64,000 nt of DNA from Holophagales bacterium (GCA_009845425.1 VXZQ01000014.1:333783-397782); one strand, 5' to 3'; counted from the first letter of the stretch, positions 34,515 through 48,816 are shown. The notes: generated from the letters alone by a model not told the origin. Translations and numbers: made by a program.

Positions 34515-35192
34515 CTAGCCGCTGAGCATCCTCTCCCGTCGCTCGGCGCGGGTGAACGTGAGGGCGACGATCGCCGCGATCGCGAGGGCGGTGCCGATGC
34601 GGTTCTGAACGTTCAGCGCGAGCATTTGCGCCGCGTCCGCCTCTTCCACGGCGAGCGGGTTCCAGAACGGTGAGACGCGGAACGAACCGAACAGCCGGTT
34701 GAGGCCGAGGACGCCGATCGTGGCCAGGGAGCCGGCCACATCGCTGCGGAACAGGGTCGCGAAGCCCATGGCGGCAACGAGGTAGAACACGACTCCCTGC
34801 GTTGCTCCGTACAGGCCCTGAAGAACCGGGAAGGCCGTGAAGAAGGCATAGGTCACGCTGGCGAGGAGGACCAGGCTGACCAGGAGCATCAAGACCGCGG
34901 CGGCGAGCTTGCCGAGCCAGACCCGATGGGCGCCTCCGGGCACGGTGTAGGCGATCTCGAGGCTGTGCTGGTCGAGCTCCCCGGTGATGATTCGGCCGCC
35001 CAGGAAGATGGCGAGCACGGCTACCGGCACACCGATCAGGCTGTTCTGCGCCGCCACCGGTTCCAGGGCAGGCCGCATGCCGGCTACCAGCATGAGCGCC
35101 TGTACTGCGAGCCACACCAGGGGCAGCAACGGCAGCATCCAGTAGCGGCGTCCGCCAAGCAACACCGCCGAAGTGCGAAGCAGCGTAATCAT
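34515..35192 (-). CDS. ABC-2-type permease subunit, last gene of the hybrid operon
   Basis: A 225-residue protein with about six membrane helices (LLPLVWLAVQALMLVAGM, IGVPVAVLAIFLGGRIITGELDQ, KLAAAVLMLLVSLVLLASVTY and others). GRIITGELDQHSLEIAYTVPGGAHRVWLGKL is the amphipathic coupling region of ABC-2-type exporters. The ATG at 35192 overlaps the stop of the RND-ABC fusion gene by 4 bp (ATGA), so it is translationally coupled and is the natural membrane partner of the fused ATPase. The substrate is unknown. Confidence 0.82.
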   Translation of the reverse strand: MITLLRTSAVLLGGRRYWMLPLLPLVWLAVQALMLVAGMRPALEPVAAQNSLIGVPVAVLAIFLGGRIITGELDQHSLEIAYTVPGGAHRVWLGKLAAAVLMLLVSLVLLASVTYAFFTAFPVLQGLYGATQGVVFYLVAAMGFATLFRSDVAGSLATIGVLGLNRLFGSFRVSPFWNPLAVEEADAAQMLALNVQNRIGTALAIAAIVALTFTRAERRERMLSG

Positions 35193-38100
35193 GCCGGCGC
35201 CTCGGTGCGCGCCGCCCGCGCGAGCCACAGATAGCCGTCCTCCAGCGTCGGCTCGGCGGGGGCGGCCCGCTCGTCCGGGCGGCCGCTGGCGAGCACACGA
35301 AGGCTGCTCGTGCCGTCCGGTTCGGGCTTCTGGTCGGCCAGCACCGCGCCTTCGGGCAGCTCAGGCACTTCTTCTTCATCGGCCGTTCGCCACGACCACA
35401 CCCGGCCCTCGGCTTCGCGCGACAGCGCGGCCGGATGGCCGTCGAACACCATTCGACCGCGGCTCAACACCAGGACGCGGTCGCACGCCACCGCCACATC
35501 TTCGACGACATGGGTCGAGAAGAGCACGATCCGGTCCTTCGCGAGCCGTGAGAGCAGGTTGCGAAAGCGGACCCGCTCGCGGGGGTCGAGGCCGACGGTC
35601 GGTTCGTCGACGACGATGATCGGAGGCAACCGGAGCAGCGTGCGCGCCACCGCCACGCGCTGTCGCATGCCACCCGAGTAGCCGCCGATCTGCTCGTCGG
35701 CCCGCTCGTCGAGCCCGACCTCACGCAGCAGCGTCGAGATGCGATCGGTCCGTTCCGACCTGTCGATCTGGTAGAGGGCGGCGTAGTACTCGAGGTACTG
35801 GCGGGCGGTCAGCCGGGGCGGCAGGCCGGCGTCCTGAGGCAGGTAGCCGACGTAGCGCGCGAGGCGCGTTCGGACACTGAGCAACGGTACGCCGCCGAGC
35901 GTGATCCGGCCCCGCGTCGAGTCGAGAATGCCGGTCAATTGCCGGAGCAGCGTCGTCTTGCCGGCGCCGTTCGGGCCGAGGACTCCGACCATGCCGCGTT
36001 CGACCTCGAAGCTCACTGCAGCCAGGGCCCTGACGGTGTCGATCGGCAGGTCCAGGCCGAACACCTTCGTGGCCGCGGCGCGCCAGAGGCGGAGGATCTG
36101 ACCTCGCCAGCCGCGCGCGCGCCGGCGGCGGGAAGTCCGCCGTTCCCGGCGCATCGTCTCCAGCCGCGCCGTACGGCGTCCGAGCTGAACCAACAGGATG
36201 ATCGTGGAAACGATGCCGAGCGCGATGAACCCTCCCACTTCAGGATCGGCGACCATCTCCGGGACGACCAGCCAGGCGAGAAGCGCCCAGGGCAGCAGGG
36301 CCGTCAGCACGCCCTCGATGCCGCCCGGTGCGACGCGACCGAGATCGTCGGCGCGGCCGCGGGCGCGCCGGATCTCGCGCAGCAACCGGGAGCCGATCAA
36401 CAGGATGGCGATCAGGACGCCGAGGATGATCAGGCCGCCGCGCATCCGCGCTGCCAGGGCGATGGCGCCGGCGAACAGGAGGAGAAGAGGCAGCAGCCGG
36501 TCGCGTGCGTCGGCCGGTTCGAAAGCCTGGCCTCCCTGAGCGGCGACCCGTCTGGCGAAGTCGGCCGTAGCCCGCAGCGCCCGGCGCACCGGTCCGGGAA
36601 GGCCGTACGTCTTGCGCAGGTGGCGGACCACGAGTCTGGGCGGGCCGGCGGCCGTCTCCGGTTCTGGCGACGGCGGTTTCGGTAGCAGCCATACAGTGAG
36701 GCCGAGCAACGCCCCGGCGATCAGCACCGTGGTCGTGACCTGCCAGAACATCGACTCGATCACGCCGAACGCGAACAGAGGCGCCGTAGTGGCGATGACC
36801 GCGCCGAGCCAGGTCAGTACGACCCAGGGGCCGACGCGGCTGAACAGTTCGTCGAGGCGTCGCAGGAAGACGAAGCCGACCGGGATGACGAGCAACGTCA
36901 GCAGGGTCGCGGTCAGCAGGCCACCGATCACGAGCGTCGCAAAGGGCGGCCAGATCTCGTTCTCGCGACCCGTGGCGATGGACAGGGGCGCCAGAGCCGC
37001 GACCGTCGTTGCGGAAGTCATCAGCACCGGGCGCGCCCGCTCGCGCACCGCGGCGAGGGCGGCCGCGCCGGCGCTCCAGCCGGCGCCCAGCGTGTGCTGC
37101 TGCATTCGGTCGACGAGCAGGACGGCCGGGTTGATCGCCAATCCCAGCAGGACGAGCGCACCGAGCAGAGCCATCGCCTCGAAGCCGATGCCGGTCAGCA
37201 CAAGAGCCCACACCGAACCGAGCAGCGCGAGGGGAAGGGCGATCAGGACAAGGATCGGCAGCGTCATCGACTCGAACGTCACCGCCAGGACGAGGAAGAC
37301 CAGCAGAACGACCGGCACAACGATCCGCCGGAACCAGTTCGTGCTCTCCCCGGAGCGGTCGAGCGCGATCGTCGTGCCCGCGGGCCGGTGGATGCTCGCG
37401 ATCGCTTCGTCCAGGCTGCGGTCGAAGGCGTCGCGCGCGGGTCCCCGTCGCGGCACGTCCGGTGACAGGGTGTAGAAGACCTCCCGTTCGCGGACGCCGT
37501 TGTGGTGGGTGATGACCGGGGAGGGCGGGGCTTGCCGCACTTGCGCCAGGGCGGCGACCGGCAGGACACCGGCCCCGGTCGAGACGCGGAGCCGTTGCAG
37601 CCCGCTGAGCGACACGTCGCGGTCGACGCCGCTGCCGTTTGATGACTCGGCCCCGTCGCGCCGGTCCTCCAGCCGTTGCACGACGATAGGCAGCTCTCTC
37701 CCGCTGGCGAGCGGATAACCGGTGTTGATCCTGGTCCCCTCGCGGCCGGCCAGATTCAGCATCGGCAGTACTTCGTCCAGGAGCACGCCGAACGTGTCGA
37801 AGGCGCGCCGATTCGGACTCACGTGGAGTTCGTCGGGCCCCGGGCGTACTGCCGGATAGGCGCTCGCGATGCCCTCGATCTCCCGCAGCCGCTCGGTGAC
37901 CTGGGCCGCGAGGTCGGTCAACTGCTCGTTGTCGTTGCCGGAAAGGACGACCCGGGATGGGCCGCCGCCGAGCAGTTCCTGGGCGCCGCCGCCTCTGCCG
38001 CCGCCGCCTCCTCCACGTCCTCCCGGGCCTTCACCCTCGCCCGGATTGAGGAGTTCGGCTCCGGCGCGCCGGGCCGGCGGACGCAGCAGTTGCCGTACGC

Positions 38101-40006
38101 GTCTGGCCGTCAGCCCCTCGGGTCGCTCGTCTTCATCCACCAGGTGGACGGTCAGCGACCCTCCCTCTTCCCGGATCATGCTCTCGACGCGGTCGACGCC
38201 CTCGACTTCCTGAATCGTCTCGAGACGTTCGAAGACGCGGACAGCCGAGTCGAGGCTCCCGCGGCCCTCGGGCAGGCGGACGGAGAGTTGGACCTGGTCG
38301 GCGATCGGCGCCTGGCCGGGGCCGCTCGAAGCGACGAGGAACAGGGCGGCGATGACGCTCAGGACGACGGCGGTGACGACGCCCGTGATCCAGCTCGCCG
38401 GCCGGCGCAGGGCGGAGGCGAGCACGCCCGCGAACAGAATCCGGGTGGGGTCGGGCGGCACCAGTCCGCCGAAGCGTTCGCGGCGTCGACGCAGCTTGGT
38501 CAACCGCCGAATCGCGGCCGGTGCGGCGAGGTGCCGCGCCAGCAGGGGCACCAGTCCGATCGCCACCAGGAGCGAGCCGAACAGCGGCAGCAGGATGGCC
38601 AGCGACAGGAGCGCGATCAGGTTCTGGATCAGGGACGACTCCAGGTCGACGATGACGGCGGGCAGGAAGACGATCGCCGTCGTGACGGAAGCGGCGACGA
38701 TGGCGCGGCCCGTGCGGCGGATGCCCCCGGCCGCGGCGTCGTCGGGACTCCTGCCGCGTTCCAGGCGGCGCTGGACGGACTCGAACACGACGACGCTGTT
38801 GTCCACGATGAGTCCGACGCCAATGGCCAGCCCGAAGAGCGTGAACAGGTTGAGCGACAGACCGGCCACGTAGAGGAAGGAGAGAGCTACTGCCAGACTG
38901 ACCGGCACGGCGACCGCGACCACGGCCACCGCACGCCACTGACGGAGGAAGAGGAACAGGACCAGGAGCGCGATCCCGAAACCCGAGAGACCGAGGTTCC
39001 GCAGTCGGTCGATCTGCGTCTCGACCAGGTCGGCGGCGTCGAAGCTGGGAAACAGGCGGATGCCGAGCGGAGTGAACTCCTCGTTGATCTCATCGATCCG
39101 GCGACGCAGATCGCGACCGAGTCGCACCAGATTGGCGCCTTCCTCCTGGAACACCATGACGCCGACCGACGGCTCACCGTTGACCCGGTACAGCATCTGG
39201 CGGCGGCCGGAGCCGATCTCGACGTCGGCTACGTGGCGGACCAGGACAGGAAGGTCGGGGACCACCCGTACGTCGCCCATGGACACCGGGCCGGCTGGCC
39301 GGCCGTCGAGCATCACCGCCGTCCGCCCTGCCTCGTCCTCCAGGCTGCCGAGGTAGCGGAGGCGTCCCGCCGCACCGCGCACCGCCGCGGTTACCTGCTC
39401 CGTCGTCACGCCGAGCGCGGCGCAGCGGTTCGGGTCGACCCACACGGTCAACTGGCGCGAGGCGCCGCCGCCCAGCATCGCCTGGCTGACTCCCGGCACC
39501 GCGGCCAGCCGGGGCGTGATCATTTCGTCAACCAGGTCGTACAGTGCGTCCTCGTCGTCGGAACCGGTCACCTGCAGGATCATGGCGAAGCTCGAGAAGA
39601 CACTGGTGTCGTCGGCCTGCACGTTGAGGAAGGCGTCGCGCGGCTGGGTTCGGGCGAGATCGGCGGCGATGCGGCGCATCTCGAGTTCGCGCACCTTGAG
39701 GTCGACGCCGCGTTCGAAGCGGACGGTGAAGCTGCCGGCGGCGCCGCTGACCTCGCCCCAGGTCTCGGCCACCCGGGGCAGCGTGCGGACCCGGGCTTCG
39801 AGCGGCATGAGGATCTCCCGCTCGATCGTCTCCGGCTCGCTGCCCGGGCGGAAGAAGCTGACGTAGAGCGAGTCGCCCGTGAGAGCAGGGAACAGTTCGA
39901 CCGGCAGTCTCTGCCACGCGAACCCGCCGAGCATGACGAGTGCGACGAAGAACATCGTCACCGCCAGGGGGCGGCGGATGGCGAGCGTGTCGAGACCGGC
40001 TCTCAC
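35189..40006 (-). CDS. RND efflux pump fused to an ABC ATPase that is split by a four-helix membrane insert
   Basis: One uninterrupted 1605-residue frame. Residues 1-1050 are an AcrB/HAE1-like RND pump: TM1 12-30, PVELFPALTGDSLYV, TM4 GLAIGVGLIVDNSVVVFESV (Asp402-Asn403), TM10 GLAINPAVLLVD. Two further helices (about 1060-1107) lead to RLVVRHLRKTYG (1124-1135), the first strand and A-loop Tyr of an ABC ATPase. Helices at about 1171-1187, 1190-1206, 1232-1251 and 1258-1275 follow, then a basic linker. The ATPase resumes at VRALAAVSFEVERG: Walker A 1344-1352, Q-loop Gln1391, SGGM signature 1444-1447, Walker B Asp1467-Glu1468, His1499. All ATP motifs are intact. The TM10 Lys of AcrB is absent. 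A poly-Gly tract lies at 662-674. GTG start; 13 bp after the RND1 stop. Confidence 0.92.
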   Translation of the reverse strand: MRAGLDTLAIRRPLAVTMFFVALVMLGGFAWQRLPVELFPALTGDSLYVSFFRPGSEPETIEREILMPLEARVRTLPRVAETWGEVSGAAGSFTVRFERGVDLKVRELEMRRIAADLARTQPRDAFLNVQADDTSVFSSFAMILQVTGSDDEDALYDLVDEMITPRLAAVPGVSQAMLGGGASRQLTVWVDPNRCAALGVTTEQVTAAVRGAAGRLRYLGSLEDEAGRTAVMLDGRPAGPVSMGDVRVVPDLPVLVRHVADVEIGSGRRQMLYRVNGEPSVGVMVFQEEGANLVRLGRDLRRRIDEINEEFTPLGIRLFPSFDAADLVETQIDRLRNLGLSGFGIALLVLFLFLRQWRAVAVVAVAVPVSLAVALSFLYVAGLSLNLFTLFGLAIGVGLIVDNSVVVFESVQRRLERGRSPDDAAAGGIRRTGRAIVAASVTTAIVFLPAVIVDLESSLIQNLIALLSLAILLPLFGSLLVAIGLVPLLARHLAAPAAIRRLTKLRRRRERFGGLVPPDPTRILFAGVLASALRRPASWITGVVTAVVLSVIAALFLVASSGPGQAPIADQVQLSVRLPEGRGSLDSAVRVFERLETIQEVEGVDRVESMIREEGGSLTVHLVDEDERPEGLTARRVRQLLRPPARRAGAELLNPGEGEGPGGRGGGGGGRGGGAQELLGGGPSRVVLSGNDNEQLTDLAAQVTERLREIEGIASAYPAVRPGPDELHVSPNRRAFDTFGVLLDEVLPMLNLAGREGTRINTGYPLASGRELPIVVQRLEDRRDGAESSNGSGVDRDVSLSGLQRLRVSTGAGVLPVAALAQVRQAPPSPVITHHNGVREREVFYTLSPDVPRRGPARDAFDRSLDEAIASIHRPAGTTIALDRSGESTNWFRRIVVPVVLLVFLVLAVTFESMTLPILVLIALPLALLGSVWALVLTGIGFEAMALLGALVLLGLAINPAVLLVDRMQQHTLGAGWSAGAAALAAVRERARPVLMTSATTVAALAPLSIATGRENEIWPPFATLVIGGLLTATLLTLLVIPVGFVFLRRLDELFSRVGPWVVLTWLGAVIATTAPLFAFGVIESMFWQVTTTVLIAGALLGLTVWLLPKPPSPEPETAAGPPRLVVRHLRKTYGLPGPVRRALRATADFARRVAAQGGQAFEPADARDRLLPLLLLFAGAIALAARMRGGLIILGVLIAILLIGSRLLREIRRARGRADDLGRVAPGGIEGVLTALLPWALLAWLVVPEMVADPEVGGFIALGIVSTIILLVQLGRRTARLETMRRERRTSRRRRARGWRGQILRLWRAAATKVFGLDLPIDTVRALAAVSFEVERGMVGVLGPNGAGKTTLLRQLTGILDSTRGRITLGGVPLLSVRTRLARYVGYLPQDAGLPPRLTARQYLEYYAALYQIDRSERTDRISTLLREVGLDERADEQIGGYSGGMRQRVAVARTLLRLPPIIVVDEPTVGLDPRERVRFRNLLSRLAKDRIVLFSTHVVEDVAVACDRVLVLSRGRMVFDGHPAALSREAEGRVWSWRTADEEEVPELPEGAVLADQKPEPDGTSSLRVLASGRPDERAAPAEPTLEDGYLWLARAARTEAPA

Positions 40007-40019
40007 GGCGCGTTCCGGT

Positions 40020-43000
40020 TCAGGCGTCCGCGGTCGGCCGGCGGCGCCGAGTCAGCCTCAGCGAGTCGAGAATCAGGTACAGGCAGGGCAGCACCAGCAA
40101 CGAGCCCACCGTCGAGGTCACGATGCCGCCGATGATCGTGTAGGCCATCGGGCTGCGCAGTTCGGCCGCCTCGCCGGCGCCGACGGCGAGCGGCAGAAGC
40201 ACGAGCACCGTGGTGAGCGTCGTCATCAGGATCGGCCGTAACCGGATCGCGGCGGCCCGGGCCAGGGCGGCTCGCCGCTCGATGCCCGCGGCCATCAGCC
40301 GCCGTGCCGTAGCGATCAGGAGGACGGCGTCGTTCACCGCCACACCAGCGAGCACGATCAGCCCGAGCAAGGCCATCACGCCGACCGGCCTGCCCATCGG
40401 CCCCAGCGTGCAGGCGACGCCGAGCAGGGCGAGGGGGATCGAGAACAGCACGGTGAGCGGTTGCAGGAGGGACTCGAACGTTCCGGCGAGCACCATCAGG
40501 ACGAGAACGATGGCCAGGATGCCCGCGAGCCGCAGTTCGGAGGTGGCGCGCAGACGTTCCTCCTCCTCGCCGGCCAGGCGCACGATCAGGCCGGGGGGAA
40601 GCTCGGTCGCCGAGATCGCGTCGCTCGCCGCGGCGATGGCACGTGGATAGTCGCTGCCTTCGGCGATCCGTGCCGTCACTTGCGCCACGCGCCGCTGGTC
40701 GCGGCGAAAGACCTCGCGCGCTCCCTCCGTCGGCACGAAGCGCGCGACCTGGCCGAGCACGAGATCGGCTCCGGCGCTGCTGGTGAAGCGCAACCCGGCG
40801 AGTTCCTCGGGCCGGGGCTGGGGCAGGGACAGAACGACGTGGCGCTCCTCGTCGCCGACCGAGAGCAGCGTGACCCTGCGGCCGTCGAGCGCGGACTGGA
40901 GTACACGGGCGATCGTCTCGAGATCGACGCCCAGGCCGTCGGCCATCGCCCGATCGAGTTCGATCCGCAGTTCGGGCGGACCGCCCTCGAAGGACGAACG
41001 CACGTTCCAGAGTTCCCCTCGTGTGGCCAGAGCGTCGCGGAGGCTGGTCGCCGCGGCCCGCAGGTCGACCAGCGACTGACCGGCGATCTCGACCACGATC
41101 GGCGGACCGGATGAGCCCAGGGCTTCGGCCAGCGCCGAGGTTCCGACCTCCCATTCGATCTGGGTGTCGGGCAGGTCCGTGAAGTTCGGCGACAGCGCGC
41201 CCACGAGCTGGCTGCCGGTGGGACCCTCGGCCGACAGGCGTACCAGGAGCCGGGCAGTGTTCTCCTCGGTCAGTTCGGTCGTGACCAGCCGGTCGTCCTC
41301 CGGCAGCCGTCCGACCTCGGCCTGAACCGCTTCGAGGTGCTCACCGGCGGCCTGACGCACCGCCTCTTCGAGCGTGGACACCGCGGCCGCGGTCGCTTCG
41401 ACGCGTTGGCCCGGCGGCCCGACCATGCGCACCGAGAACTGCCGGGGGTCGGCCGGCGGAAGGAGTTCGCTGCCCAGGCCGACAAGGACGTTCACGGCGG
41501 CCGCGGCGGCAAGCACGGCGGCGGCGACGACGAGCCAGCGCAGGCGGAGGAGGAACAGCACGAATCGTTCCAGGGCGCCGAAGGCCCAGCCGAGGGGACG
41601 CGCCTCGCCGTCGTCCGGATCCGTCGCAAGTGTGGCGTCGGCAGCGGGTGCTGCTTCCGCGACCCCAGCCGCCGGTTTGGCCCGAGGCAGGAACCAGCGC
41701 GACAGGGCCGGAATCAGCATCATCGCGACGGCGAGGGACGCGACCAGCGAGGCGGTGACGGTGAAGGCGATGCCCTCGATCAGCCGTGCGGCCAGCCCCT
41801 GCACGAAGAGGACGGGCAGGAAGACGACGCACGTGGTCAGCGTCGACGCGGCGATCGCTCCGGCGACCTCGCCGGTGCCGCGGGCGGCGCTGTCGGCAGC
41901 CGAAGCTCCGGGGCGGTGGCGCCGGTGGATGCTCTCGACGACGACGATCGCGTTGTCCACCAGCATGCCGGCGCCGAGCGCCAGACCGGCCAGGGTGATG
42001 ATGTTGAGCGAATGGTCCCAGAGCCGCATCGCGAACAGGGCGACGAAGAGGGAGACGGGCACGGCGGAAGCAACGACCACGGTCGGACCGAGCGAGCGCA
42101 GGAACAGGGCCAGGACGACGACGGCCAGCGCGATGCCGACCAGGGCGGCGCTCTGCAGGTCGGCCATCGCGTCCTCGACCAGGGCGGCGTCGTCGTTGAC
42201 CATCGACACCTGCACGCGGGGCAGGTCGAGTTCCAGGTTCTCGAGTGCCGCCCGCACGGTGCGCGAGACCTCGACGGTGTTCGCGCCGGCCTCCTTGAAC
42301 ACCTGCAGACCGACGCCTTCCTGGCCGTTGACGCGCACCAGATGGTCTATCTCCCCGTGGACGACCTCGACCTCGGCGACATCGGAGACGCGGATCGGTT
42401 GCCGGACCTGCTCGCCGCCGGTCCCCGCCTGGGTGCGATAGCGGATGACGACCCGCTCCACGTCCCGTGGGTTGCGGAAGCGGGAGATGCCGCGGACCAG
42501 GAAGACCTGGCCGCGATCCTCCAGGGTGCCGGCGTCGATGTCGACGTTCTCGGCCACGAGGCGCTGCTCGAGTTGGCTCAGGGTCACGCCGAATGCCTGC
42601 AGGCGGTAACGGTCGACCCGCACCCGCACCTCCAGTTCGCGCCCACCGAGCACGCGCACCTCGGCGACGTCGGCGAGCTGCTCCATGGCCGGCGCCACCT
42701 GGCGTCGCGCCAGACGTCGGAGTTCGGCGAGATCGGGACCGCCCGGCTCCGAGGCCAGCCCCAGGGTCATGACCGGCGACTGCCTCGGGTCGAGCTGGCG
42801 GACCAGGACCTCGTCGACTTCGGGGTCGGCCGCGACCGGGTTGATCGCCTTCTGGACCTCGATCAGCGCCAGGTCCATGTCGGCTTCCCAGTCGAAACGC
42901 ACCGTGGCGATCAGCCGGCCGGTGCGGGCAACCTGCTGGACCTCGCGGATGCCGCGTACCGTGAACAGGCGCTGCTCGACCTGTTCGCCGTAAAGCCGCT

Positions 43001-43202
43001 CCATCTCGGTCGGTGGCCGGTCGCCGGAGCGCACCGCGACCACGATCGTCGGCGAGCGCAGGTCGGGGAGGAGGTCGATCGGCAGTTCGCGCCACGACAT
43101 CCAGCCCACGAGGGCGAACGCCAGGGCGGTGACCGTGACCGCTACCGGCCGACGGGCGGCGAGGCGGGCCGGGCCGGAGCCTTCACCGGGAGCAGCGATC
43201 AC
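40020..43202 (-). CDS. RND efflux permease (AcrB/HAE1-like), RND1 of the hybrid operon
   Basis: A 1060-residue RND pump of normal length. TM1 is AVTVTALAFALVGWMSWREL, followed by PIDLLPDLRSPTIVV. TM4 has GLALGAGMLVDNAIVVVESI (Asp416-Asn417) and TM10 has GVAVNDAVLLI (Asn957-Asp958), so the AcrB Asp-Asp/Lys relay is replaced by Asp-Asn in TM4 and an added Asp in TM10. The two porter loops are about 40-340 and 575-880. A GTG start is preceded by aggaggt. It follows the fusion-protein gene for a lipoprotein adaptor by 27 bp and precedes the RND-ABC fusion by 13 bp. The two RND proteins probably form a heteromeric pump, an inference from the arrangement of MdtBC-like systems. Confidence 0.93.
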   Translation of the reverse strand: MIAAPGEGSGPARLAARRPVAVTVTALAFALVGWMSWRELPIDLLPDLRSPTIVVAVRSGDRPPTEMERLYGEQVEQRLFTVRGIREVQQVARTGRLIATVRFDWEADMDLALIEVQKAINPVAADPEVDEVLVRQLDPRQSPVMTLGLASEPGGPDLAELRRLARRQVAPAMEQLADVAEVRVLGGRELEVRVRVDRYRLQAFGVTLSQLEQRLVAENVDIDAGTLEDRGQVFLVRGISRFRNPRDVERVVIRYRTQAGTGGEQVRQPIRVSDVAEVEVVHGEIDHLVRVNGQEGVGLQVFKEAGANTVEVSRTVRAALENLELDLPRVQVSMVNDDAALVEDAMADLQSAALVGIALAVVVLALFLRSLGPTVVVASAVPVSLFVALFAMRLWDHSLNIITLAGLALGAGMLVDNAIVVVESIHRRHRPGASAADSAARGTGEVAGAIAASTLTTCVVFLPVLFVQGLAARLIEGIAFTVTASLVASLAVAMMLIPALSRWFLPRAKPAAGVAEAAPAADATLATDPDDGEARPLGWAFGALERFVLFLLRLRWLVVAAAVLAAAAAVNVLVGLGSELLPPADPRQFSVRMVGPPGQRVEATAAAVSTLEEAVRQAAGEHLEAVQAEVGRLPEDDRLVTTELTEENTARLLVRLSAEGPTGSQLVGALSPNFTDLPDTQIEWEVGTSALAEALGSSGPPIVVEIAGQSLVDLRAAATSLRDALATRGELWNVRSSFEGGPPELRIELDRAMADGLGVDLETIARVLQSALDGRRVTLLSVGDEERHVVLSLPQPRPEELAGLRFTSSAGADLVLGQVARFVPTEGAREVFRRDQRRVAQVTARIAEGSDYPRAIAAASDAISATELPPGLIVRLAGEEEERLRATSELRLAGILAIVLVLMVLAGTFESLLQPLTVLFSIPLALLGVACTLGPMGRPVGVMALLGLIVLAGVAVNDAVLLIATARRLMAAGIERRAALARAAAIRLRPILMTTLTTVLVLLPLAVGAGEAAELRSPMAYTIIGGIVTSTVGSLLVLPCLYLILDSLRLTRRRRPTADA

Positions 43203-43229: not shown

Positions 43230-44303
43230 CTAGCCGGACACCCGAACGCGCGTGCCGTCGGTCAGGGTCTCGAGTCCGCGCACGACGATCCGCTCGCCGA
43301 TCTCCAGCCCCTGGCGGACTTCCGCGATCTCGTCGTCGCCGAGACCGAGCAGCACCTCGCGCCGCACCGCGCGTTGGCCGTCGAGCACGAACACGACCCG
43401 TCGGCCGCCGCGCTCGGTGACCGCTTCGCGGGGGATGACGGGCACGGCGTTCCGCTGTTCGACGACTAGGGTCACCTCGACGAACATGCCGGGCCGCAGC
43501 AGACCGCCGGGGTTGTTGATCGCCACTTCGGCGCGGAAGGTATGAGTCGTCGGATCGACCTCGGGCGAGAGACGGACGACCGCGCCTTCGAAGGCGATGT
43601 CTTCCCAGGCGAAGTGGCGAAGCCGCCCTTTCTGACCCGGGTGGACGCGCGCCAGCTCGGGGCCCACCAGGTCGATGTCGGCGACCAGGGAGTCGACGGG
43701 AGCGATCCGCGCGACCTGGAAGCCCTGGTACACGAGCTGGCCGTCCGCGATCGGCATCCCGCTCGTGTCGCGGGCCAGTTCCATCAACACGCCGCCAATG
43801 GGCGTGAGCATTCTGGCGCGATCTTCCGTCAGCAGGCTCTGCTCCCAGGTTGCCTTGGCGTCTTCGAGGGCGGTCTCGGCCCGTCGCAGTTCCTCCGCGG
43901 CGATCAACTCCTGCTCGAAGAGCCGGGCGCGGGCGTCCCGCTCGGCGAGAGCGCCCTGGTAGGCCTGGTGCGTCGCCTCGACCCGGGCCGCGAGTCGTGC
44001 ATCCTCGCCCGTGACTTCCGCGATCATTTGGTCGGGGACCACGCGATCGCCCTCGGCGAGCCGGCTGCCGTCCTCGTTCCGCCCGATCTGGAGCCGACCG
44101 GGTGTCTCGACCTGGAGCACGATGCTCTCCGCGGCGCGCAGGGTGCCGGTGGCGACGATCAGGTCTTCGACGTTGCCGGTTCGGACTTCGGAGGCGCTCA
44201 CCGGCACCAGGAAGTCGACGGTGTCCGTGGTGCCTGCCGCGTCGCAACCCAGAGCCAGGAGGCAAGAGGCGGCCGCGGCGCCCAGCCATTGCCGCGCGCT
44301 CAC
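43230..44303 (-). CDS. RND membrane-fusion (periplasmic adaptor) lipoprotein
   Basis: A 357-residue HlyD/AcrA-type adaptor. The signal ends in lipobox LALGC (Cys20). The lipoyl half-motif is LQVETPGRLQIG with GDRVVPDQMIAEV. A helical hairpin follows (AYQGALAERDARARLFEQELIAAEELRRAETALEDAKATWEQ is its core), then beta-barrel and membrane-proximal parts (VHPGQKGRLRHFAWED, VIPREAVTERGGRRVVFVLDG). The hairpin is short, so the adaptor may reach only part way across the periplasm. A GTG start overlaps the stop of the ABC permease-M1 gene (GTGA). Confidence 0.92.
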   Translation of the reverse strand: MSARQWLGAAAASCLLALGCDAAGTTDTVDFLVPVSASEVRTGNVEDLIVATGTLRAAESIVLQVETPGRLQIGRNEDGSRLAEGDRVVPDQMIAEVTGEDARLAARVEATHQAYQGALAERDARARLFEQELIAAEELRRAETALEDAKATWEQSLLTEDRARMLTPIGGVLMELARDTSGMPIADGQLVYQGFQVARIAPVDSLVADIDLVGPELARVHPGQKGRLRHFAWEDIAFEGAVVRLSPEVDPTTHTFRAEVAINNPGGLLRPGMFVEVTLVVEQRNAVPVIPREAVTERGGRRVVFVLDGQRAVRREVLLGLGDDEIAEVRQGLEIGERIVVRGLETLTDGTRVRVSG

Positions 44304-47300
44304 GGCGTCCCACCCCCGCCGGTCGCGTCGGCGCCGGCGCCGTTGTCCAGGCGCACGAAGCGCACGGCGTCGGCGGCCACGACGTTGCCGGTCGTGTCGT
44401 TGCTCAGTTCGAGTTCCACCGTTCCCGGGGCCAGATCGAAGTCGCCCAGCACGGCCCAGCCGATGCCCGCTCCCTGGGCGTCGAAGTCGATGGGACGCGA
44501 GCTGCCGGCGTTGTGCAGTTCAAGATCGTAGCTGCCCAGGTTCAGGCCGAAGCTCACGTTGACCTGGGCGCCTCGGGCGTCGTCGCGGGGTGGACCGTCG
44601 CCGCCGCCGATCCGCACCTCGCGGCGGATCTCGCCGCCGCCCGGCACAGGCGAAAGCGAGGGCACATGCAGCTCCACTCGCCAGCGGCCGGCTTCGGGCA
44701 GTTCCGTTGTGTAGGTGACGCGGCGGCTTCCGTCGCCCTTCGCGATGAGCGCGGTGGTCCGCCGGTAGCGTCCCCAACTCGAAGGCTGTTCGTAGCGGGA
44801 CCAGTCGGCCGGAGTGCCGCTGAAGATCGAGTAGACGGGCAGACCCTGGTCGGTTTCGAGCGCGGGTGCGAAGATGCCGGCGAGACCGCCCTGGAGCCGC
44901 ATGCCGTCCGCCTCGGCTTCGTCCGTTTCGACCGAGAAGCCGGGATCCAGGTCATCGACCACGATCGTGCCGGCGCCGCCGTCGAGGAACGCCGGCGTCC
45001 AGTCGGCCGGCCGGACGCCACGAAGCGGCTCCCTGTCCGAGATCGTCTCGTCGTCGAGCCGCGGCAACTCGATGGCGAACTCGCGCCGGTTCAGGGACAG
45101 GTACGGGGATGCGAGCATCGTCCCCGGCGGCCGGGACGTGACGAGTCCGAACTCGACCGTCGTGTGCCCGGGGATGAGGACCGGCTCACTGGAATCCCAG
45201 CGCGCGCCACCGGGGGCGCGCACGGCGTAGCGGAGCCGGAACAGGCCGGGCGCCGCCTCGCCGTTGCGGACGAACAGCCGGGTCTGGTACTGCGGCCCAC
45301 CCTGGTCGTCGTCCGGCAGGCGCTCCAGTTGCGCCGGGGAAACCAGGAAACCCGGCAGGTCCGTCTGGTGCAGGAAGTCGCCGACGAGACCCGCCAGATC
45401 GACGCCCGCCTCCTCGGCTGCGCTGTGCAGATCGGCGGCGGTGAAGGTCGAACCGCGGTGATCGCGCAGCAGGTTGGCGATCATGGCTGCGGTGCGCTCC
45501 CGCCCGGCGCCGTCGAGTACCGCCGTGGCAAGGGCGGCAGTCTTGAGATAGAGCGCGTTCACGGCTTGCTTCGGGTTTTCCTCGACGTCCAGGTCGGTAA
45601 GGGAGCTGCTCAGCACAGCGTCCCAGACGCCGGGCCGGTCCGTGAGGGCCTTGACGATGCCGCTGGCGGCCGAGCCGCCGCCGGCTGCGAACTGGCCCGT
45701 GAAGCCCCCCTGCATCACGTTCGCCATCGTCCAGCCGAACTCGCGGTCGAACAGGTGAGCGGAGAAGTAGGACTCGCCCCCGTTCACCAACTGGTTCACG
45801 AGGTTGTGGCAGAGCGCTTCCAGCGCCAGGGCCTCGGGCCCTCGGGCGCCTGTCTGGTACAGGAAGACGTTGCGGATGCTCCCGGCCTCCAGATTGCCGC
45901 CGGAGTAGTCGAGGCGGAAGAACTGCTGCAGTCCGTTCGCCTTCGCCCTGGGCAACCCGCCCTCCTCGTCCTCGAACCGCTCCGGATTCCGGAACCGGAA
46001 CTCGAAGCGGGCGGTAGGCAGGCTGCTCTCGCTGACCAGCATCATGCCAGGCGGCGCTCGCTCGGTGTCCATGCGCCATCCGCCGCCATAGGAACGGAGA
46101 GTCCAGGGCACCTCGACGAGGCTGAACTGCCTGTAGGGGTAGGGCATTCCCAGTTCGCGGGCGGTGGCGAAGCGGTCGGCGGCGATCTTCTCGATTTCGG
46201 CCTGGGCGTCGGCGAAGAAGTCCAGGTTGCGCAGGTGGTTCGGGTGGAACAGGACCTCGACTTCGACTCCTTCGACGTGTGTCGTCCGGCGGTCGAATCT
46301 GCCGGCGACCAGCATGACCTCTGGCACCGGGCCGGTGGGCGCGAATCGCTGACCTTCCCCGGTGGATTCGGCCATGCCTGGCCCCGCGACCGTCCAGCCG
46401 GAGGGGGCTGTGACGTCGAGGTCCAGCTCGAAGAAATCCCGCGAACGCTGGCGCACGTCATCGGCGCCTACGGACGCGCCCGGACGGGGAAGCCACGCGA
46501 GAGACGCGGGGAGTGCGACGTGGTTGCGTTCGACGGAGCCGTTCAGGTTGCCGAGCATGACGATCTGCGCGTCCTGCCACTCGCCGGTGTTGTAGTCGAT
46601 CGCCGAGTCCAGATAGGCGAAGCGGAGGTCGGGCCGCCCGCGGGCGCGCACCCGGACCCCGGTGACCTGGTCTGCCGCTGGCGTCGAGCCGAGGTGGACG
46701 TCGAGCAGGCCGTTGTCATGGCTGAAGTCGAGCGCGTCACCGCCAGCGTTCCAGACTCCCTCCACCCGGAGGCCTGGATTCAGGCTGAACGTGACTCCGG
46801 AACCGGTAGCGGGCAGGAAGTGGACTTCGAGGTCGAGGGCAAGCCGTCCGCCGCGTTCGATGTCGATCGAGCCGCGGATCGTCTGAAGGTCAACGACCGC
46901 TGCGTCCCGGCGTTCCTCGTGTGCGGCGCGCCAGGCGTCCCTTTCGGCGATCTGGTTGCCGCTCCAGGTAATCGCCGAGAAGATGAGGACGGCACCGGCT
47001 GCGAGACCCGCACCGCCGGCGATCCCCCACAGGCGGCGCTTCGCGTCGTCGAGACGGGGATGGACGGCGACCGCGGTGGCCAGCAGGCCCACGGCGAGCA
47101 GGGCGAAGCTGCCCCGGTTCACGAAGTTGACGCCGGTCCAGATCTGGGGCGCGACCTCCGAGATGTTGCTGATGAAGCCGCCGTTCAGGGCAAGCGGCGG
47201 CAGGAGGTAGACCGGGACCCGGAACGTCAGGTACGTGCTGCCAGCGGCGAGCACGATGCCGGCCAGGGCAGCGACCAGCCGGTTGTTGCTGACCAGGGAA

Positions 47301-47833
47301 ACCACTTGCACGAAGGCGACGTAGAGGGCCAGCGCCGGCAGTGCCTCGAGCAGGAGGTAGGCCCAGACCGAACTCCAGAGGGCAGGTTCGCCGACGTACC
47401 AGCCGAAGGCGGATCCCGCATGGCCGACGGTCTGGATGAGGATCATCGCGGCAAACGCCACGCCCCAGACCATGAGCACGGTGCCCAGGAAGCGGCCGAG
47501 CACGAGTTCGACGTTCGAGTAGGGCCGGGTGTCGAGCACCTCGATCACGCGGTCACGACGGTCGCGGGCGCGCAGGTCGAAGGCGAGGAAGACGACGCCG
47601 AGACCCAGAATCGTGGTCTGGAACTGGGCGGTCTGACTGAGCAGGAATTTGGGGCTGATCGAACCGATCGTTGCCGAGAAGGACGAGAAGAGTCCGTGGA
47701 TCACCCAGTAGTAGCCGTAACTCACCAGGCAGGTGAGAATCGCGAGGCCCGAGAACAGCCAGAAGCGGAACAGGCGGCGAGTGGTCCGCATCTCGGTTCG
47801 GGCGAGCGACCAGACGTGGGCAAACGAGATCAC
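44300..47833 (-). CDS. ABC-2-type permease fused to a degenerate M1-peptidase-like domain and a golvesin-like domain
   Basis: An 1177-residue protein in three parts. Residues 1-300: about seven membrane helices of an ABC-2-type permease (starting ISFAHVWSLARTEMRTTRRLF, coupling region LDTRPYSNVELVLGRFLGT). Residues about 310-870: a gluzincin/M1-like domain. The place of HExxH reads H676-N-L-V-N680 (ALCHNLVNQLVNG), so catalytic Glu and second His are lost, and the GAMEN site reads WRMDTER; it cannot be a normal zinc peptidase. Residues about 950-1170: a golvesin C-terminal-like beta domain (TIVVDDLDPGFSVE, then GWAVLGDFDLAPG, AADAVRFVRLDNG). The GTG start overlaps the ATPase stop. Active ABC permease/M1 fusions are known; this triple form with a dead site is unusual. 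Confidence 0.85.
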   Translation of the reverse strand: MISFAHVWSLARTEMRTTRRLFRFWLFSGLAILTCLVSYGYYWVIHGLFSSFSATIGSISPKFLLSQTAQFQTTILGLGVVFLAFDLRARDRRDRVIEVLDTRPYSNVELVLGRFLGTVLMVWGVAFAAMILIQTVGHAGSAFGWYVGEPALWSSVWAYLLLEALPALALYVAFVQVVSLVSNNRLVAALAGIVLAAGSTYLTFRVPVYLLPPLALNGGFISNISEVAPQIWTGVNFVNRGSFALLAVGLLATAVAVHPRLDDAKRRLWGIAGGAGLAAGAVLIFSAITWSGNQIAERDAWRAAHEERRDAAVVDLQTIRGSIDIERGGRLALDLEVHFLPATGSGVTFSLNPGLRVEGVWNAGGDALDFSHDNGLLDVHLGSTPAADQVTGVRVRARGRPDLRFAYLDSAIDYNTGEWQDAQIVMLGNLNGSVERNHVALPASLAWLPRPGASVGADDVRQRSRDFFELDLDVTAPSGWTVAGPGMAESTGEGQRFAPTGPVPEVMLVAGRFDRRTTHVEGVEVEVLFHPNHLRNLDFFADAQAEIEKIAADRFATARELGMPYPYRQFSLVEVPWTLRSYGGGWRMDTERAPPGMMLVSESSLPTARFEFRFRNPERFEDEEGGLPRAKANGLQQFFRLDYSGGNLEAGSIRNVFLYQTGARGPEALALEALCHNLVNQLVNGGESYFSAHLFDREFGWTMANVMQGGFTGQFAAGGGSAASGIVKALTDRPGVWDAVLSSSLTDLDVEENPKQAVNALYLKTAALATAVLDGAGRERTAAMIANLLRDHRGSTFTAADLHSAAEEAGVDLAGLVGDFLHQTDLPGFLVSPAQLERLPDDDQGGPQYQTRLFVRNGEAAPGLFRLRYAVRAPGGARWDSSEPVLIPGHTTVEFGLVTSRPPGTMLASPYLSLNRREFAIELPRLDDETISDREPLRGVRPADWTPAFLDGGAGTIVVDDLDPGFSVETDEAEADGMRLQGGLAGIFAPALETDQGLPVYSIFSGTPADWSRYEQPSSWGRYRRTTALIAKGDGSRRVTYTTELPEAGRWRVELHVPSLSPVPGGGEIRREVRIGGGDGPPRDDARGAQVNVSFGLNLGSYDLELHNAGSSRPIDFDAQGAGIGWAVLGDFDLAPGTVELELSNDTTGNVVAADAVRFVRLDNGAGADATGGGGTP

Positions 47834-48816
47834 GGATGCGCCTCCTTCCCGGCGCCGTCGTCGACAGGTGGCGGCTCGGCGAACTCGAGTTCGTCGTGCT
47901 CGCCGAAGTGCTCGTCGCTGACCAGCGCCTCCGCGCGGCCGCGGGCGACCATGAAGGCGAGATAGCCCTCCTCGAGAGTGGGCGAGGCCGCGATCCGGGC
48001 GTCTCCCGGGACGCCGCCCGGCGCGGCGACCGCGCGGTAGGTCGCCTCGTTCTGGCTGGCGGTGCGCGAGACGATCTCGAAGTCGCCTTCGGGCTGCGGC
48101 GCGGACATCGGCAGCGTGAGCTCGAAGACCTGGCCCGCGGCCCGTTCGAGCAACTGCGTCGGCGAGCCCCGGAAGACGACTCGCCCGGCGTCGAGCAGGG
48201 CCAGGTCGTTGCAACCGGTGCCGAGGTCGGCCACGATGTGGGTGGAGAGGATGATCGTCCGTTCCCGCCCCAGGGTGGCCATCAGCTGGCGGAACCGGAT
48301 GCGCTCTTCAGGGTCCAGGCCGACGGTCGGTTCGTCGACCACGAGCAGGCGGGGTTGGTGGATCAGGGCCTGCGCGATGCCGAGACGGCGGGTCATGCCG
48401 CCCGAGAGCTTCTTCACCTTGCGATGGGCGACATCGCCCAGCCCCACGTTGTCGAGGACCGCGTCGACGCGTTCGCGCCGTGCGGCGCGGTCATCGAGGC
48501 CTGAGAGATCGGCCAGAGTGTCGAGGACCTCCTCGACGCGGTGCAAGCGCCAGGCGCCGAACTCCTGCGGCAGGTAGCCCAGGTGGGCGCGGACGGCACG
48601 GCGCTCCTTGACCGCGTCGTGGCCGAAGACGGTCACCGTGCCGGCGGACGGCTTGAGCAGGGTGCAGACGATCCGCATCAGCGTGCTCTTGCCCGCCCCG
48701 TTCGGTCCGAGCAGACCGAACAGTCCCGCCCCGATCGACAGGTCGACCCCGTCGAGGGCGACCGTGCCGCCCTTGTAGACATGCCGAAGACCCTGCACGT
48801 CGACGGTCGTGCTCAC
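47830..48816 (-). CDS. ABC transporter ATPase, first gene of the hybrid operon
   Basis: A 328-residue ATPase of the drug/antibiotic exporter (DRA/ABC-2) type: LRHVYKGGTVALDGV with A-loop Tyr14, Walker A GPNGAGKST at 37-45, Q-loop LPQE near 82-85, signature LSGGM at 137-141, Walker B VVDEP with Asp161-Glu162, His193. About 100 extra residues follow, ending in ASPTLEEGYLAFMVARG and an acidic tail. The same PTLE(D/E)GYL element ends the ATPase part of the RND-ABC fusion, so the two are paralogues. A strong gaggaggag site lies before the GTG start. It serves the fused permease encoded by the overlapping next gene. Confidence 0.93.
   Translation of the reverse strand: MSTTVDVQGLRHVYKGGTVALDGVDLSIGAGLFGLLGPNGAGKSTLMRIVCTLLKPSAGTVTVFGHDAVKERRAVRAHLGYLPQEFGAWRLHRVEEVLDTLADLSGLDDRAARRERVDAVLDNVGLGDVAHRKVKKLSGGMTRRLGIAQALIHQPRLLVVDEPTVGLDPEERIRFRQLMATLGRERTIILSTHIVADLGTGCNDLALLDAGRVVFRGSPTQLLERAAGQVFELTLPMSAPQPEGDFEIVSRTASQNEATYRAVAAPGGVPGDARIAASPTLEEGYLAFMVARGRAEALVSDEHFGEHDELEFAEPPPVDDGAGKEAHP

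Follow-up and report, generated by a model that had tools for sequence, protein, structure and literature searches.

The window, a stretch of 64,000 nucleotides, contains on its minus strand an open frame of 1605 codons, which runs from a GTG start at position 40006 to position 35189. The encoded protein of 1605 amino acids joins an RND permease and an ABC ATPase in one chain, as indicated by the open frame, by matches to Pfam ACR_tran in the N-terminal part and ABC_tran at residues 1330-1470, and by conservation. The RND permease domain comprises residues 1-1050 (36857..40006, minus strand, as for all features below). It was identified by Pfam and NCBIfam models, with the NCBIfam RND model spanning residues 8-1049, and carries D402-N403 in TM4 and N959-P960 in TM10, motif residues that are invariant in 41/41 non-redundant members. 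Two extra membrane helices follow (TM13-14, approximately residues 1060-1109; 36680..36829), which were recognized by family hydropathy and are helices in the AlphaFold model. Residues 1124-1135 (RLVVRHLRKTYG; 36602..36637) were assigned as strand 1 of the nucleotide-binding domain (NBD) and its A-loop tyrosine, Y1134. Between NBD strands 1 and 2 lies an insert of some 180 residues that contains four membrane helices (TM15-18; 36059..36601), as delimited by hydropathy, the AlphaFold model, and the K-x-Y spacing. The rest of the ATPase (35192..36058) includes strand 2, Walker A, Q-loop, signature, Walker B, D-loop, H-switch, and a C-terminal tail, supported by Pfam and NCBIfam matches, motifs, and structure matches. 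Hydropathy thus places six hydrophobic segments C-terminal of the RND domain, two before strand 1 and four after it. GC and GC3 are uniform along the whole gene.

A preliminary description, made from the sequence alone, had claimed this 1605-codon frame with an RND pump, two helices, strand 1, a four-helix insert, and the remaining ABC ATPase in that order. The frame, the Pfam and NCBIfam matches, and hydropathy bear this out, and its coordinates, residue numbers, and motifs held. Its text had left out that the gene is on the minus strand.

The RND part meets the criterion for the HAE family, an ACR_tran domain with twelve helices and two porter loops (Pfam, NCBIfam, hydropathy). Like HAE-type pumps (AcrB, SwrC-like; TC 2.A.6), it has twelve helices, a porter domain, and the conserved TM4 aspartate; with D402 invariant in 41/41 non-redundant members, the requirement for an acidic residue in TM4 is also fulfilled. 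The D407-D408-K940 triad of AcrB is not present, as the fusion has D-N in TM4 and N-P (N959) in TM10 instead of D-D and K. Other RND groups also lack this triad, which defines AcrB-like pumps and not all RND proteins. HAE-type pumps lack the 555 additional residues of the fusion, which make up the six helices and the NBD.

The fused NBD fulfils the criteria for an ABC ATPase: Walker A (1344-1351), Q-loop (Q1391), an LSGGQ-type signature (SGG, 1444-1446), Walker B (D1467 and the glutamate E1468), D-loop (D1474), and H-switch (H1499). The A-loop tyrosine (Y1134), the Walker A lysine, the Q-loop glutamine, SGG, the Walker B aspartate and glutamate, the D-loop aspartate, and the H-switch histidine are invariant in 41/41 non-redundant members. 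The usual continuity of the chain is the one feature not met, since strand 1 and the A-loop aromatic residue are conserved but lie some 180 residues away and are predicted to join the core. The domain matches solved ABC ATPases, the best profile and structure matches being of the DrrA, GldA, and ABCA type. All NBD motifs are held in common with the DrrA/GldA/NosF/ABCA-type (ABC-2, type V) ATPases, from which the fused ATPase differs in that four membrane helices split off strand 1 and the A-loop and that an RND permease is attached. A complete, conserved RND permease and a complete, conserved NBD are therefore present in one chain, with four helices between NBD strands 1 and 2. The invariance of the catalytic residues also bears on another possibility: rather than powering transport, the fused ATPase might serve as a regulator or assembly clamp, sensing ATP and opening or locking the pump. 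In its favour, RND pumps need no ATP, and the ATPase is tethered by membrane helices on both sides. A pure sensor, however, need not retain all catalytic residues, including the Walker B glutamate and the H-switch, and we consider this reading very unlikely.

The assignment of the detached strand was examined with a 12-column matrix for strand 1 and the A-loop, built from standalone ABC ATPases. Approximately 300 residues upstream of Walker A were scanned in 41 non-redundant relatives (the window protein and 40 others). The best matrix position was the segment preceding the insert in 41/41 proteins (4.7-23.4 bits), and the second-best position reached at most 6.4 bits in all of them; the tightest case (L185) scored 7.7 versus 6.4 bits. 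In the window protein, RLVVRHLRKTYG was the top match at 16.4 bits and the second-best position scored below 0. Chance resemblance to strand 1 was ruled out by this result. A full HMM test of strand 1 gained little (259.3 bits versus ≤258.0 bits in 400 controls), and the position matrix is therefore taken as the stronger evidence. The distance from the K-x-Y motif to Walker A was 189-221 residues in 64 fusions, compared to 25 in the standalone ATPase.

An AlphaFold model of residues 1040-1605, calculated from a 41-sequence input, had a mean pLDDT of 86 and a pTM of 0.74. With the NBD present, residues 1125-1134 formed a ten-residue strand with a pLDDT of approximately 90. When the NBD was omitted (residues 1044-1314), the helices were unchanged and the same residues turned into coil (pLDDT 55-71). 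As a strand requires a partner and only the NBD has strands long enough, pairing of residues 1125-1134 with the NBD strands is inferred; it remains a prediction of the model. Lysine and arginine are frequent in the loops between TM14 and TM15 (which contains strand 1), between TM16 and TM17, and after TM18, and are scarce in the other loops. On the basis of this distribution, both ATPase pieces are predicted to lie on the cytoplasmic side, where they would fold together. The preliminary description had inferred just this, and had named structure and topology prediction as checks. Its reading is supported by the charge pattern and by AlphaFold: the segment becomes a strand only in the presence of the rest of the ATPase, and the two pieces are predicted on the same membrane face, not on opposite ones. 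It had missed the operon context, a sister lineage without the insert, and the separate gene for the likely ABC partner permease, all of which are described below.

The fusion is the final gene of a tightly packed minus-strand operon, in which starts and stops overlap. The first gene (47830..48816) encodes a standalone DrrA/GldA-like ABC ATPase, recognized by profile matches and 37% identical to the fused ATPase. Its stop overlaps the start of an ABC-2 permease gene (44300..47833), whose product matches ABC2_membrane and GldF weakly and has a large periplasmic domain that resembles M1 peptidases but lacks HExxH, together with Golvesin_C. A periplasmic adaptor (membrane fusion protein; 43230..44303; NCBIfam RND_mfp, HlyD_D23) and a second RND permease of 1060 amino acids follow. 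The latter (RND1; 40020..43202; Pfam ACR_tran) has the conserved motif D-N in TM4 and N-D in TM10. The HExxH motif was absent from the M1-peptidase-like domain in 10/10 permeases checked. This ectodomain, in the window (44300-47833) and in others (L204-L212), is a probable pseudo-peptidase with Golvesin_C at its end.

A tripartite efflux system requires an adaptor and a TolC-type factor. The adaptor is encoded in the operon, and OEP proteins are encoded elsewhere in the genome of the window; in one related operon (L103, family f73), a TolC-type protein (OEP, 4.6e-38) lies between permease and adaptor. The presence of two distinct RND genes and an adaptor in one operon likewise satisfies the gene criterion for an MdtBC-like system. 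As in MdtABC/MuxABC-type systems, the two RND genes are adjacent and accompanied by an adaptor gene, and one RND protein lacks ion-coupling residues (here in the sister lineage) whereas the other keeps them. In contrast to the fusion operon, neither RND protein of MdtABC carries an ATPase or helices past TM12, and no ABC genes are present in its operon. Like the fusion system, MacAB-TolC is a tripartite envelope pump that includes an ABC ATPase, but MacB has its own ABC membrane domain and there is no RND subunit.

Of the 21 species in the window's genus, 20 had an intact fusion, with 65-98% identity over the junction, and a single-contig genome was among them. The neighbouring genes did not differ among the genus regions read. 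Candidatus Multivorans thiocomprendens (L119; Acidobacteriota, Thermoanaerobaculia) is a member of this genus. Across 396 genomes from the phylum, several families had full-length fusions with 51-55% identity, and more distant families had them with 34-36%. With the junction region as query, a GTDB-wide scan detected 103 relatives; the 80 loci returned came mostly from Acidobacteriota and Gammaproteobacteria/Pseudomonadales. The complete RND-insert-NBD protein was encoded in one frame at 66 of these loci, including closed or near-closed chromosomes. Many carriers are sponge-associated or environmental bacteria. No insert-bearing NBD was seen as a standalone ABC protein without RND among the matches listed in the genus and phylum searches, which were not exhaustive. 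The dN/dS ratios indicated purifying selection in every segment, being lowest in the NBD (~0.03-0.11), intermediate in the RND part (0.08-0.26), and highest in the insert (~0.2-0.4). The database search suggested in the preliminary description thus finds the RND-ABC order to be widespread, conserved, and under purifying selection.

These data address the objection that the fusion is an assembly artefact, a frameshift read-through, or a pseudogene. Nothing in the window speaks for it; two single relatives (L117 and L171) are broken and the Moorena record mentioned below is contaminated. Against it, the layout recurs in 20/21 species of the genus and, at full length, at 66 loci in independent assemblies, closed chromosomes included, and the fusion is under purifying selection. 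Misassembly or frameshift is ruled out by the same layout in independent and closed genomes, and the artefact reading as a whole is all but excluded. Misassembly and absence from relatives, which would have refuted the preliminary description, are contradicted by the same genomes.

Several records were set apart. Shorter frames in three genomes (G046, G047, and G063) stop at contig ends. Frame breaks in the fusion gene were seen in L117/L047 (G051) and in L171, each in a single metagenome assembly, where sequencing error and recent decay could not be distinguished. Moorena bouillonii PNG (L183, NZ_MKZS01000001.1) was rejected as a cyanobacterial member, as its fragment is nearly identical to Acidobacteria bacterium Mor1 and adjoins N runs; this stretch is likely contamination or a chimeric scaffold. 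A doubtful fragment from Neomarinimicrobiota (L145), flanked by N runs, was left uncounted.

The operon is conserved across phyla. At 58 loci with enough upstream sequence, RND1 was found upstream of the fusion in 49, the adaptor in 48, and the permease in 45. The association of the fusion with a second RND protein, an adaptor, an ABC-2 permease bearing a periplasmic ectodomain, and an ABC ATPase is conserved. At seven gammaproteobacterial loci, the fusion lies apart from the operon and is followed directly by a lone small ABC-2 permease gene (PF12679). In the four of these seven genomes that were searched, the ATPase-permease-adaptor-RND1 operon was located elsewhere, and each genome had a single close RND1 and a single fusion. 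The possibility that the fusion acts alone in such genomes (L146 type) was thereby ruled out. That the parts are retained even where they are no longer linked is an argument for their functioning together, and the retention of one close RND1 with one fusion gives indirect, inferential support for a mixed trimer. The same four genomes contain 5-23 matches to the permease-peptidase protein but only one close RND1 and one fusion, so the RND1-fusion pair may be a core shared by several permeases.

In twelve genomes of the same class, the NBD of the RND-ABC fusion is uninterrupted and every one of the six extra helices is absent. In 9/9 aligned proteins, the TM4 'LVDN' motif was lost by a five-residue deletion, the TM10 motif was also lost, and all NBD motifs were retained. 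RND1 partners of these fusions kept the TM4 aspartate in those checked. That only one of the two RND proteins has lost its ion-coupling motif fits a mixed trimer. In the insert-free operons, an additional small gene, ABC-2-like and with six helices, lies between the permease and adaptor genes; it was absent from the insert-bearing operons examined. Six loci (L198, L199, L200, L201, L202, and L203) show the combination of an RND half without ion-coupling motifs, an intact ATPase, and the small six-helix gene. In a tree of NBDs, the insert-bearing fused domains (two groups), the insert-free fused domains, and the standalone ATPases formed separate groups; a single origin of the fusion is unsettled.

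The sister lineage lends weight to an ATP-driven RND pump, in which the fused NBD would drive or gate the RND cycle of its own chain without involvement of an ABC permease. The covalent link between NBD and RND supports this, as does the loss of the TM4 aspartate motif and the TM10 asparagine with retention of the full NBD, as would be expected had ATP replaced the ion gradient for that subunit. However, the ion-coupling residues are invariant in the lineage of the window, the NBD is of the ABC-2 exporter type, and ABC-2-type permease genes accompany the fusion, some recognized by weak Pfam matches only. This explanation remains possible but rather unlikely.

Alternatively, TM13-18 may themselves form one membrane half of an asymmetric ABC exporter, wrapped around and threaded through their own NBD, with the ATPase and the permease-peptidase as the other half. 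Six helices are the general count for an ABC-2 half, and operons with a helix-free fusion carry the extra six-helix ABC-2-like gene that the insert-bearing operons examined do not. Against this, the ABC-2 assignment of the small gene is itself weak, and at one locus (L155) an insert-bearing fusion occurs along with a separate small ABC-2 permease. Furthermore, a PDB fold search and profile comparison detected no relation of the six helices to ABC-2 permeases, neither among solved structures nor by similarity to the small or the large permease, so that the criterion for an ABC-2 fold is not met. We regard this arrangement as unlikely; together with the ATP-driven RND pump, it stays open as a rival to the model of a tethered exporter.

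This model, which we favour while considering it as likely to be wrong as right, takes the fusion to be the second RND subunit of an MdtBC-like tripartite envelope pump that carries one of the ATPases of an ABC-2-type exporter and uses both ATP and ion gradients; the function is inferred. That the fused ATPase serves an ABC-2 exporter is suggested by the type of its NBD (DrrA, GldA, ABCA), as ATPases of these types serve ABC-2/type V exporters, and by the ABC-2-type permeases that constantly accompany it. A precedent for a mixed RND trimer is MdtABC, whose active form is MdtB2C1 (PMC7015380). By analogy, the fusion and RND1 would form a mixed, MdtB2C1-like trimer, and the NBD pair would consist of two fusion copies or of one fusion and the standalone ATPase. 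The two extra and four inserted helices, which have no known fold, may clamp the NBD at the membrane beside the permease. With ATP, the ABC-2 permease would move substrate across, or lift it out of, the inner membrane, and the docked RND heterotrimer would pass it through the adaptor and the TolC channel, driven by the ion gradient. The fusion would thereby tether the ABC-2 exporter to the RND heterotrimer, so that substrate released by the former is captured and expelled by the latter, and the RND1-fusion pair may be a common core served by several cargo-specific permeases. The make-up of the trimer, pairing of the NBDs, ATP hydrolysis as a dimer, the substrate, and its hand-over are all inferred. 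Against the model, contact between NBD and permease is only inferred, and the permease with the standalone ATPase could be a complete exporter alone. The symmetries of an RND trimer and an NBD dimer also do not match, and a 2:1 solution is an assumption. The absence of any detectable relation between the six extra helices and ABC-2 permeases counts against this model as well.

In a bolder reading, which we consider less likely than not, the system would be a new transporter class: one machine with a single central protein powered by ATP and an ion gradient, in which the RND pump receives substrate directly from the ABC exporter. The passage of the ATPase chain through the membrane between strands 1 and 2 would couple the state of the ATPase to the membrane part, and several paralogous permease-peptidases would attach to the common core as cargo adaptors. 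The fusion would rank as such a class if dual energy use were shown.

To our knowledge, no transporter has an RND permease and an ABC ATPase in one chain. Neither an RND-ABC fusion nor an NBD interrupted by membrane helices was found in the open-access PMC literature searched (preprints were outside its scope), and a review of tripartite pumps (PMC8277102) mentions no such fusion in the sections bearing on it. Within this literature, the earlier statement that no transporter of this layout had been described therefore held. While the parts belong to known families, the architecture is very unusual and apparently undescribed. RND and ABC pumps are regarded as distinct classes, each with its own energy source, and a conserved chain with both engines allows the coupling of primary and secondary transport to be asked about directly. 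An ABC ATPase that is intact despite four membrane helices inside it widens the known tolerance of the fold. Automatic annotation likely hides such genes as 'efflux RND transporter permease subunit'.

Sponge-associated gammaproteobacterial genomes of approximately 2.6 Mb are those with 5-23 matches to the permease-pseudo-peptidase. It may be speculated that up to 23 such matches in sponge-symbiont genomes reflect a role against diverse chemicals of the host or community. The genome of the window encodes another permease/pseudo-peptidase beyond the window itself (G000:C11:287944-291477); this copy is 79% identical and stands alone, with no ATPase or RND gene within 12 kb.
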